Source: Deltaproteobacteria bacterium
Lineage (GTDB): Bacteria > Bdellovibrionota > FAC87 > UBA2466
Direction: 5' to 3'
Length of the DNA: 55,130 nucleotides
NCBI GenBank assembly: GCA_900299195.1
Contig: OMIX01000024.1
Coordinates: forward strand, 1-55,130
Shown here: positions 15,663 through 40,125 of the stretch, in pieces
Position numbering within the stretch: position 1 is the first letter of the stretch
Layout of the letters: each line of letters opens with the position of its first letter
The notes under the pieces: generated by a model
What the model was told of the DNA's origin: nothing
The model's database searches: none
What the model saw: only the letters and a program-made list of their open reading frames with translations
Made by a program: the position numbers and the translations under genes

Positions 15663-16967
15663 TTACTTGCCCTGATAAAGATTGTGTTTTTGAATGTATT
15701 CCAACAAAGTGGGATCCAACTCAGTTTCTAAGGGACGATTGTGAGAGCGGATTTTTTGACGAATTTGAGTTGAGCTTATTGAAGGCGAACCATCTCCAGG
15801 AATCACAACGGCAACTTCTTTTAACGATTCGGGAATCACTAAGTTTTGACTAGATCCAGCTCTAGGAGAAACTAAGTAAACTCGATTGGAATCGGGTTTT
15901 ATTTTTCCCTGCTCTAATAGTTTTTCAAAGGAATCCTGACCGATCACTTGATAAAGTTTTTTCGTCCCGTAAATTTGTCCCACCCTTTCAAAAAAGGGAT
16001 CGCGACCAAACTGATCAATTAAAGAGGCCGAATCCCCCGTATAGAGATTAATGCCTGATTCTCTCTGAACTCGCATTGCGGTCATTGCGATTCGATGATG
16101 GGCTGCAGAAGCTTCAGGTTTTTCAATAGAATTTAAGTTTGGAGCAATGAGAATCTCATCAAGGCCCGCATTTTCCATTGCATTTTTTGCTACCCGAAAA
16201 TGACCTTCATGAATGGGATCGAAAGTTCCAAAGTAAACCCCAACCTTCGGTTTGTAATCTCTCATGGTATTGGTCATCAATTGACCAATCGTATTTCGGG
16301 AACCCAATTCATAATTGGTCAATCGTCCTGAAAGAGCAATCGTTCCTTCACGAATATCCCCTCCCACAGGCACCACTCGAAAATCTCGAAACTTATTAAG
16401 ATCAATACCAGCCGCGGGAAGATAATGCCCCCAAGGTTCTCCCCAAGGCTGAACACCATTCACCAAAATATCGATATTATCCAATTTCAGTTGGCCCATG
16501 CGCTCGTAGCCAGCCAAACGGTAAGCTAAAAACCGATGATGGGCGTTCCATAAATCCACTTCACGAATTTTTCCCTCGGAATCAGTCACTATGTTAACCA
16601 AAATTCGATCGTGTTCAAAATTTCCCCCTTGATTCTCTCGGATGTACTTAGCTAAACCTTCCACTTGCTGCGGTTTTCTCAAGAATCGATGCCCCGGAGC
16701 TGCAATCACTTGGTCCAGAGGTAATTCCGAAATGGCTTTCAATCGGTCTTCTTTTGATTGGTTTTCAAAAACTTTTCGCCCCAGAAAATGAAATGAAGGG
16801 GGTTGATTAGCACTAAGGTCGCTTAAATTAGGAATGACACGAGTTTCCTGCCTTTTATTTTTAAGAATCTGTTCCAACAGAAAGGAACAATCGATTCTTT
16901 CTGCGCCAAAAACGTGCAGAGAAACAAAAAATAAAATGAGGCTAAGTAGCCAAATAACACGTCCCAC
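15663..16967 (-). CDS. Exported ParB-like / NMNAT-like nucleotidyltransferase fusion
   Basis: The GTG at 16967 is chosen because GGAAGGATTCT precedes it; this gives 434 residues. An N-terminal hydrophobic segment (VIWLLSLILFFVSLHVFGAE) looks like a signal peptide or anchor. Residues about 70-170 resemble the ParB-N/sulfiredoxin fold, with an LPLDQVIA strand and DLWNAHHRFLAYRLAGY in the place of the usual DG-x-HR box. Residues about 240-434 are a nucleotidyltransferase of the NadD/NMNAT type: YFGTFDPIHEGH (T/HxGH motif) near 245 and ISSTQIRQKI near 400. NadD itself is cytoplasmic and about 200 residues, so this is unlikely to be the housekeeping enzyme. Confidence 0.75.
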   Translation of the reverse strand: MGRVIWLLSLILFFVSLHVFGAERIDCSFLLEQILKNKRQETRVIPNLSDLSANQPPSFHFLGRKVFENQSKEDRLKAISELPLDQVIAAPGHRFLRKPQQVEGLAKYIRENQGGNFEHDRILVNIVTDSEGKIREVDLWNAHHRFLAYRLAGYERMGQLKLDNIDILVNGVQPWGEPWGHYLPAAGIDLNKFRDFRVVPVGGDIREGTIALSGRLTNYELGSRNTIGQLMTNTMRDYKPKVGVYFGTFDPIHEGHFRVAKNAMENAGLDEILIAPNLNSIEKPEASAAHHRIAMTAMRVQRESGINLYTGDSASLIDQFGRDPFFERVGQIYGTKKLYQVIGQDSFEKLLEQGKIKPDSNRVYLVSPRAGSSQNLVIPESLKEVAVVIPGDGSPSISSTQIRQKIRSHNRPLETELDPTLLEYIQKHNLYQGK

Positions 16968-17294
16968 AGAATCCTTCCGCCCTCTCCCGAGCGGCTGATT
17001 TAGCAAAATAAAAGCCAGGTGTGGACTCGCTGACTACGCAAGAACCCCTAAAATTCATTAGCTTTTTTAGTTACAAAAGAAACAATCTTCGTCCGAGTGT
17101 TCAATGTTTGTGCGGTAATGACGTTCTCCACGGAATTTATGTAAGGGGTTGATGGACCTTAGGGATGTAACGGGAATTGAGATAGCTTCAGACTAAGTAT
17201 GTAGCAAACTCGTCTTAACCAAGGACCTCAATATCCCCGTCCATACCGACCCAGTTCATTAACAAATCTAAGAACGTGCCTACCAGAAAGTCTT

Positions 17295-38302: not shown

Positions 38303-38316
38303 TTCGAAAGTTGGGT

Positions 38317-40125
38317 ATGGAAAAGTTTGGGGACAAATTACTTTTACTTTCCTTACTACTCACATCATCGTGGGTTAGTGCTGCGGATGGATTTTGCCTA
38401 AAGTATTTTTTAAAAGTCTCTCGGCCTGGGTCTCAACTGGTGGCTCGAGCCTTTTCCCTGGCGATTCTTCCGGAAGCACAAAAAAAGAAAGCCATCGCTC
38501 TACTTAACCCAGAGGAAAAAGTAGCCCTAGCTCTGGCGGCTCTTCGCGGTGGATTAGGAGTGGAGGATTTTGACAGTTCAACTCTACCCAACTCTCTTCT
38601 ACACACCATTCACCCCTCAACCGCCGATATTCCAGGGCGACCTCCTATTTCTGAATCACTAAAAAAGGGATTCCAAAAAGATGCAGCCCAATCCTTATTA
38701 ACCGCTTATCGAAAAAAGACGGGAGAGTTTCTTCCAGGAATTTGGTTTGATCTCGTTCAATCAGCCACGCAAAATGCCTCTCCTAAAGATCGTAGAGAGA
38801 TCGCTAGATCTCTTTTAAACAAGCTGAAGGATTTTCCTTTTGATTGGGGCCCCCAAACCCGCTTTGATCAATTTATCGATGAAGCTCTTGGTCTAAACGC
38901 CGACAGAGTTACCGAAGCTTTAAATTCAGTAAATGCTGAGGAACTTAAGAAAAAATATGGCGAAGAGCAAATTTGGGCTGGATTTGGAAATAGGAATCTT
39001 CTCACCCCCTATTTTGAATTTCAAAATATTATCGAAAAACTCAACCTCAAACCGGGTCAGTTACTTGTCGATTTAGGCAGTGGCCTCGGAAGGCAGGGAA
39101 TCTTTTTGGGTTTAACTCGACCTGATGTTAATTTTCATGGTTATGAAATTGTTGAAGAGCGCGTCTTGGAATCGGAAAGAACCGCCAAGGCGCTCGAATT
39201 ATCTAATGTAAGATTCTCCCGCCAAGACCTTTCCGATCCTCGATTTAAACCAGAAGCTGCCGATGTTTACTACGCTTTTAATCCCGTCAGTGGTTCCACT
39301 TTTTTGAAAATTTTAAATGACCTGAGAGAACAGTCGTTTAAAACAAAGAAACCTTTTACTCTGGTTCTCGCCTTTTCCAAAGATATCCAACGAGTGCTAG
39401 AAAAAGATTCAGGATTTCAGGAAATCACCCCCAAGCCTAACTTTGAAGAAGATGACTTTGCCCGATTTTTCCGTTTTGATCCATCTGAACCTTGGACCCC
39501 ATTTGGAAGTTCACAAATCCTTCAACAACGGGAGCTCGATCGAAACTTAAGCTCGGTCGGAGCTACGCTCAACAGCCCACCACCTGCTTTAAGTTCTAGA
39601 GCCCGGCCTTTGGAGTTCTCAGACCGTGCCGAAGTAACTCGACTTATGGAAAAGAGTGGGAAATTTCACTCCAACTTAGATTTTGTCTCTCTTTGGTCTT
39701 GGAATCCCACTGACCATTACACTCTCTCCCAAAAAAATGGAGCTGTACTTCTTAGCGGAAATACAGGATCCGGTCGGTTTGTGATGGAACCCCTAGGTGC
39801 TTCGCCCCAGGAAAGCGCTCAAATCATTTCTGATCTGCTCAAGGAGAAAAAAGCACGACAATTTAGATATGTATCTTTAGAAACTGCAAAAATTTTGGAA
39901 TCGGATCCCAGTATCAAAGTTGAGCTTGATACCAGTATTCTAGATTACACCTACGATTCCAAACAATTGGCTCTGCTCGCCACTCCCAAAAAGGCGAATG
40001 AATCCACTGAACCTCTCCAAAGATCTTCGCTACAAAAGAAACAAAGCCTTAGAATTTGCAAGCTCCAACCCTCCCCCTCAGTTAGTGCAAGCTCAAAACC
40101 CAGCATTAAAGAAAAAGGCTTTTGA
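38317..40125 (+). CDS. Secreted SAM-methyltransferase plus N-terminal half of DUF2156 (frameshifted)
   Basis: 602 residues from the ATG at 38317; signal peptide LLLLSLLLTSSWVSAADGF. Residues about 245-370 are a class I methyltransferase: LLVDLGSGLGRQGIFLG (motif I), VNFHGYEIVEERV, NVRFSRQDLSD and YYAFNPVSG. From about 430 the protein becomes DUF2156-like (LEFSDRAEVTRLMEKSGKFH, DFVSLWSW, GAVLLSGN, then LDYTYDSKQLALL). It loses homology after residue 560; the continuation is in the +1 frame at 39998. The last ~45 residues (from ATPKK on) are Ser/Lys-rich out-of-frame sequence. Confidence 0.7.
   Translation: MEKFGDKLLLLSLLLTSSWVSAADGFCLKYFLKVSRPGSQLVARAFSLAILPEAQKKKAIALLNPEEKVALALAALRGGLGVEDFDSSTLPNSLLHTIHPSTADIPGRPPISESLKKGFQKDAAQSLLTAYRKKTGEFLPGIWFDLVQSATQNASPKDRREIARSLLNKLKDFPFDWGPQTRFDQFIDEALGLNADRVTEALNSVNAEELKKKYGEEQIWAGFGNRNLLTPYFEFQNIIEKLNLKPGQLLVDLGSGLGRQGIFLGLTRPDVNFHGYEIVEERVLESERTAKALELSNVRFSRQDLSDPRFKPEAADVYYAFNPVSGSTFLKILNDLREQSFKTKKPFTLVLAFSKDIQRVLEKDSGFQEITPKPNFEEDDFARFFRFDPSEPWTPFGSSQILQQRELDRNLSSVGATLNSPPPALSSRARPLEFSDRAEVTRLMEKSGKFHSNLDFVSLWSWNPTDHYTLSQKNGAVLLSGNTGSGRFVMEPLGASPQESAQIISDLLKEKKARQFRYVSLETAKILESDPSIKVELDTSILDYTYDSKQLALLATPKKANESTEPLQRSSLQKKQSLRICKLQPSPSVSASSKPSIKEKGF
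39988..39992 (+). other. Probable frameshift site (A5 run)
   Basis: CCC-AAA-AAG-GCG: deleting one A joins the two DUF2156 halves in one frame as a protein of about 735 residues. The following AAGG could also serve as a weak RBS for the ATG at 39998. Confidence 0.55.

Follow-up and report, generated by a model that had tools for sequence, protein, structure and literature searches.

A predicted exported protein family of Bdellovibrionota with a likely ParB/sulfiredoxin-like domain and a NadD-fold nucleotidyltransferase domain

Main finding

One gene in the window (the whole stretch of 55,130 nucleotides analysed here) encodes a 434-aa protein with a predicted Sec signal peptide, a likely ParB/sulfiredoxin-like domain and a nucleotidyltransferase domain of the NadD/NMNAT fold (Table 1). 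NMNAT and NadD are textbook cytoplasmic NAD enzymes. For the present protein we favour another reading, whose chances we see as evenly balanced: an exported nucleotidyltransferase would use NTP from prey to nucleotidylate an acceptor other than NaMN outside the cytoplasm, and the ParB-like domain would be its NTP-binding or phosphotransfer partner.

Table 1. Positions of the gene, its domains and motifs, and of related or neighbouring genes
Feature	Position	Strand	Basis
Whole gene, 434-aa exported ParB-like + NadD-like protein	15663..16967	-	GTG start 16967; TAA stop 15663-15665
Predicted signal peptide MGRVIWLLSLILFFVSLHVFG, followed by A, residues 1-21	16905..16967	-	KD 3.04; VFG/VFA site conserved in genus
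Whole conserved N-terminal module, residues 70-240	16248..16760	-	16-member comparison
Likely ParB/sulfiredoxin-like core, residues ~83-170	16458..16721	-	AF2 b-a-b-b-a-b order; block pLDDT ~86-95; profile comparison
PGHRFLR, residues 91-97, in register with ParB Box I (C motif)	16677..16697	-	alignment and profile comparison
WNAHHR, residues 140-145, equivalent of ParB P motif GxxR / DGHHR	16533..16550	-	PMC12704722, PMC3482391 for the motif
NadD/NMNAT-fold nucleotidyltransferase domain, residues 241-434	15666..16247	-	Pfam, NCBIfam, PDB sequence, Foldseek
GTFDPIHEGH, ATP/phosphate-binding T/HxGH motif	16200..16229	-	both His kept in all nine intact members of the comparison
FGRDPFFERVGQIYGT, conserved family motif in place of NadD SYTxDT (NaMN pocket)	15963..16010	-	alignment
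ISSTQIR nucleotide-binding motif	15759..15779	-	SS 9/9, R/K 9/9
Exo_endo_phos (EEP) gene	L042:6422-7204	+	
Exo_endo_phos (EEP) gene	L045:87-665	+	
Exo_endo_phos (EEP) gene	L046:9040-9822	+	
Homologue with C-terminal extension	L047:6350-8887	-	
Homologue with C-terminal extension	L048:8047-10095	+	
NAPRTase + NMNAT-fold + PncA-like protein	L060:5588-8893	-	
NMNAT-fold protein of ~800 aa	L100:658-3063	+	
NMNAT-fold protein of ~800 aa	L052:6458-8845	-	
NMNAT-fold protein of ~800 aa	L101:4639-7029	+	
IucA/IucC-like + NMNAT-fold protein	L051:5521-7692	+	
604-aa ORF in the window	38311-40125	+	

Gene, export signal and distribution

The strand and coordinates given for the ORF by the first-pass annotation are exact. 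The GTG at 16967 is favoured over a TTG at 17006, from which a longer ORF is possible, because the SD-like box GGAAGG lies 5 nt upstream of it and it aligns with the GTG or ATG starts of all five same-genus orthologues. These orthologues are 67–78% identical to the window protein over essentially the full length. The two-domain ORF is not an assembly or fusion artefact, since the identical architecture is found in other families.

Export, suggested by the first-pass annotation, is supported by the conserved start, by signal peptides in all homologues and by the presence of a separate housekeeping nadD. The hydrophobic N-terminus is real: the Kyte-Doolittle 12-residue maximum of the window protein is 3.04 at residue 4, the rest of the protein does not exceed 1.16, and a cleavage-like site, VFG before A, comes next. 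No lipobox is present in the signal peptides of the window genus. Signal-peptide-like segments occur in all 16 family members (KD at least 2.2); the maximum in 11 housekeeping NadDs is 1.22 or lower. The segments of the ten distant homologues (KD 2.27–2.86) differ in sequence. As all homologues carry signal peptides that look unrelated in sequence, the predicted export is ancestral in the family and conserved. Hydropathy, the cleavage-like sites and conservation together support the prediction that the window protein is Sec-exported. The start downstream of the hydrophobic segment that the annotation had considered is not seen; all five orthologues begin upstream of it, and a wrong start giving a cytoplasmic enzyme is therefore ruled out.

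Full or partial homologues are found in 16 of 369 Bdellovibrionota genomes, covering 11 genera and 6 families. The 16 members are those of six genus genomes and ten divergent homologues from other genera (28–46% identical), and the N-terminal module always precedes the nucleotidyltransferase domain or what remains of it. The module was not found in the other eight genomes of the window's family, and no homologues of the N-domain were found in plasmid, phage and IMG/VR collections. The catalytic residues of the nucleotidyltransferase are retained in 14 members. The other two, L049 and L050, have lost its catalytic motifs and kept the N-domain; given these two, some members may have a core function other than that of the nucleotidyltransferase. 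Two homologues (L047 and L048) have C-terminal extensions of ~250–400 aa, which look kinase-like by eye and have no Pfam match.

The gene is a stand-alone one in the window, adjacent to a DEAD-box helicase gene. Elsewhere in the window, a 604-aa ORF combines a signal-peptide-like N-terminus with a SAM-methyltransferase-like domain (Pfam Methyltransf_31 3.7e-7), and its product is apparently another exported enzyme of a type that is normally cytosolic.

Nucleotidyltransferase domain

The C-terminal domain matches Pfam CTP_transf_like (1.4e-12), and the Foldseek search relates it to B. subtilis NadD (1kam, 1e-10). It also matches TIGR00482 (4e-22); its 79 bits are below the 112-bit curated score, which is weak evidence as the genome's own obgE-linked nadD also falls below at 95 bits. 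GTFDPIHEGH and ISSTQIR are both intact, as annotated.

Nine intact family members were compared with 18 NadDs (17 from the phylum and that of B. subtilis). Both histidines of HxGH and the equivalents of D109, R133 and SS are kept in all nine members, and the C-terminal Arg in eight, with Lys in the remaining one. The pyridine side is different. The pyridine pocket of NadD is formed by H45 and W117, which stack on the ring, by Y118, which binds the ring's carboxylate or amide, and by Y84 (PMC8035330; for H45 also PMC1249556). The W117 equivalent is Trp in 18/18 NadDs and in 0/9 family members, and the Y84 equivalent is Tyr in 17/18 and 1/9, respectively. SYTxDT is lost in all nine members, which have FGRDPFFERxxQIYGT instead. 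At the equivalents of W117, Y84, Y118 and H45, the window protein has Q, F, G and E. The window genus has Glu in place of H45 and six of the nine members still have His there, which leaves some room for a pyridine or other aromatic substrate. In the tree, the 18 NadDs form one clade (support 95/88; 96% of bootstraps) and the window family is placed outside it.

Because the ATP/phosphate residues are kept, the pyridine-stacking residues are lost and the family is outside the NadD clade, the window protein is probably not a NaMN adenylyltransferase. "NMNAT" is thus the name of the fold and not likely that of the reaction. The residue pattern argues for a retained nucleotidyl-transfer reaction with an acceptor other than NaMN. 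The NMNAT-like nucleotidyltransferase of the first-pass annotation accordingly stands as to the fold and the ATP-site motifs; the loss of the NaMN pocket had been missed.

The fold and the TIGR00482 match would also suit a housekeeping NadD paralogue that stays in the cytoplasm, either through a wrong start or as an inner-membrane-anchored protein with the enzyme inside. This is highly improbable. The start is conserved upstream of the hydrophobic segment, the positive n-region implies that the C-terminus is out, the NaMN pocket is lost, and all homologues have export signals. Moreover, the genome contains four CTP_transf_like genes, namely a coaD-like gene, a nadD beside obgE, an rfaE2-like gene and the present gene. 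The nadD that the annotation suggested looking for is therefore present as a separate gene, and the present gene is not the genome's sole nadD. The TIGR00482 search also found a second, separate NadD-type gene in all of the five other genus genomes except one, which is 83% complete. The cytoplasmic NadD reading does not fit the window protein.

Other exported NMNAT-fold proteins

Nine of ten examined NMNAT-fold proteins of other architectures in the phylum have signal peptides, and most scores of the exported type in a scan of the phylum are well above those of the housekeeping NadDs. L060 encodes 1102 aa with a signal peptide, an NAPRTase, an NMNAT-fold nucleotidyltransferase and an isochorismatase (PncA-like) domain, apparently an exported NAD-salvage chain in one protein. 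The products of L100, L052 and L101 are exported proteins with a C-terminal NMNAT-fold nucleotidyltransferase; that of L100 matches Pfam SelO (protein AMPylase), and the other two are alike in sequence. The 724-aa product of L051 has a signal peptide, an IucA/IucC-like domain (just below the Pfam cut-off) and an NMNAT-fold nucleotidyltransferase.

The NadD fold, the intact ATP site and the domain composition of L060 are what would be expected if the window protein were an exported NMNAT with a role in nucleotide feeding, forming or splitting NAD outside the cell. It might salvage prey NMN or NaMN with prey ATP, or run in reverse, from NAD and PPi to NMN and ATP. We regard this as quite improbable: none of the nine members compared retains SYTxDT or the Trp that stacks on the pyridine, and the window genus has Glu in place of H45. 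Besides, L060 retains the Trp whereas the ParB-like-nucleotidyltransferase family is without it. As L060 is exported and is the only exported relative seen with a clear NAD-salvage setting, the loss of the Trp is not a by-product of export.

ParB/sulfiredoxin-like domain

The middle domain has no sequence match in Pfam (including PF02195), NCBIfam, PHROGs or PDB, and PF02195 matches none of the 16 members. The AF2 model made with 16 sequences (overall pLDDT 88.6, pTM 0.86) replaced a run with six close sequences at 54.4. Residues 83–170 of the model form a strand, a helix (99–111), two strands (122–128 and 133–139), a helix (143–151) and a strand (165–169), which is the order of the ParB core. 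Among the matches listed by Foldseek (pdb, viral), those to the nucleotidyltransferase domain dominate. For E. coli YbdM, no usable PDB relatives were found.

The most conserved residues of the family coincide with the PGHxxxR and HHR boxes. P91, G92 and H93 are invariant in the 16 members, and R97 is conserved in >90%. The position of WNAHHR is WDGHHR or xxGHHR in divergent members; most members have A/G-H-H-R, and a strict G is seen in only part of the family. A global hhalign comparison with ParB was unsuccessful. The local profile comparison with chromosomal ParBs gives a weak in-register match over 73 columns, in which PGHxxxR falls on Box I and HHR on the P motif. Its score is 19.2, against a mean of 12.4 (sd 2.0, max 18.5) for 100 column shuffles, and the hhalign probability is only 1.8%. 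Topology order, motif register and a score above the shuffles make it likely that the N-terminal domain is ParB/sulfiredoxin-like. These and the HHR box agree with the first-pass annotation, to which Pfam, NCBIfam and PDB add no match.

The 2025 fold survey reports binding of ATP, CTP or GTP by orphan members of the ParB-CTPase fold and frequent fusions with enzymes; a nucleotidyl- or adenylyltransferase is not among the partners named in its main text (PMC12704722). In SerK, a ParB-type fold serves as a small-molecule kinase (PMC5120207). Tox-ParB domains carry DGHHR, and a nuclease or phosphotransferase role has been proposed for them (PMC3482391).

The resemblance of the HHR box to the DGHHR of Tox-ParB raises the possibility of a prey-directed effector in which the ParB-like domain is the active part, as nuclease or phosphotransferase, and the nucleotidyltransferase-fold domain is accessory. 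The conservation of the N-domain even in L049 and L050 fits this, as does the gene neighbourhood. A gene for an EEP (Exo_endo_phos, DNase I-like) hydrolase adjoins the homologue in L042, L045 and L046, which represent three genera of one other family, in differing orientations, and among 14 genomes searched it occurs only there. Its signal peptide is visible in L042 and L046, and the L045 copy is cut at the contig edge. Nevertheless, this effector is unlikely. No immunity gene or toxin-delivery domain was recognised, the nucleotidyltransferase catalytic residues are kept in 14/16 members, the statistics for the link to ParB are weak, and the gene is a stand-alone conserved one with an ordinary Sec signal, not a variable toxin tip. 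An EEP partner is not a general feature of the family, as it is absent in the window genus.

Possible mechanism and significance

For the nucleotidyl transfer to a non-NaMN acceptor that we favour, the following steps can be proposed. The signal peptide would be removed, and the protein would fold in the periplasm or pass further out. The ParB/sulfiredoxin-like domain would bind NTP through the PGHxxxR and HHR boxes and could partner the NadD-like domain in phosphotransfer or regulation. That second domain would transfer AMP (or another NMP) from NTP to a phosphorylated acceptor, not NaMN. The producer's own cytoplasm would not be the source of the NTP, and attacked prey is the most plausible one. 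A two-step layout of kinase, then adenylyltransferase, as in RibF, NadR and HldE, is one plausible form of domain cooperation. The protein most likely acts beyond the cytoplasm, and prey is a candidate site. ATP is scarce in the periplasm, which counts against nucleotidyl transfer outside the cytoplasm.

A broader proposal can be made only tentatively, and we would sooner doubt it than accept it: Bdellovibrionota might possess a lineage of exported NMNAT-fold enzymes, distinct from NadD, that nucleotidylate non-pyridine targets outside the cytoplasm, such as prey molecules, with ParB-like, SelO, IucA/IucC-like and other partners. If true, these enzymes would make up a class of extracytoplasmic nucleotidyltransferases not described before. 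Export of a lineage with retained ATP chemistry and a lost NAD-precursor pocket would imply nucleotidyl transfer where ATP is normally absent. Such a reaction would make most sense in or against another cell, and it could thus offer a handle on prey modification by relatives of Bdellovibrio. The loss of the pyridine pocket gives a simple way to tell NAD salvage from action on a new substrate. A literature search on exported Bdellovibrio NMNAT found nothing relevant.

Comparison with known systems

The window protein resembles NadD (B. subtilis 1kam/1kaq) in fold across the whole C-terminal domain (23–26% identity), and GTFDPxHxGH, IGxD and SSTxIR are shared. In contrast to NadD, it is predicted to be exported, is fused to a ParB-like domain, is without a pyridine pocket of the W117/Y84/Y118 type and is placed outside the housekeeping clade.

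RibF, NadR and HldE are bifunctional kinase-adenylyltransferases. They likewise fuse an HxGH nucleotidyltransferase to a second nucleotide-using domain, but they are cytoplasmic and have other kinase folds, and a kinase activity of the window protein is a guess.

With the ParB-CTPase, sulfiredoxin and SerK group (PMC12704722, PMC5120207), the window protein shares the b-a-b-b-a-b order in the AF2 model, PGHxxxR at Box I and A/G-HHR at the GxxR of the P motif. It differs from them in the lack of a PF02195 match and of an HTH, and in its predicted export. Tox-ParB of polymorphic toxins (PMC3482391) also has a DGHHR-like box in an exported protein, but the window domain is not the C-terminal tip of a large toxin, has no recognised immunity gene and is linked to an intact nucleotidyltransferase.

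The other exported NMNAT-fold proteins of Bdellovibrionota (SelO + nucleotidyltransferase, IucA/C-like + nucleotidyltransferase, NAPRTase + nucleotidyltransferase + PncA-like, and nucleotidyltransferase alone) have other partner domains and lack the ParB-like domain, but they share with the window protein the signal peptide, the nucleotidyltransferase fold and the placement outside the NadD clade.
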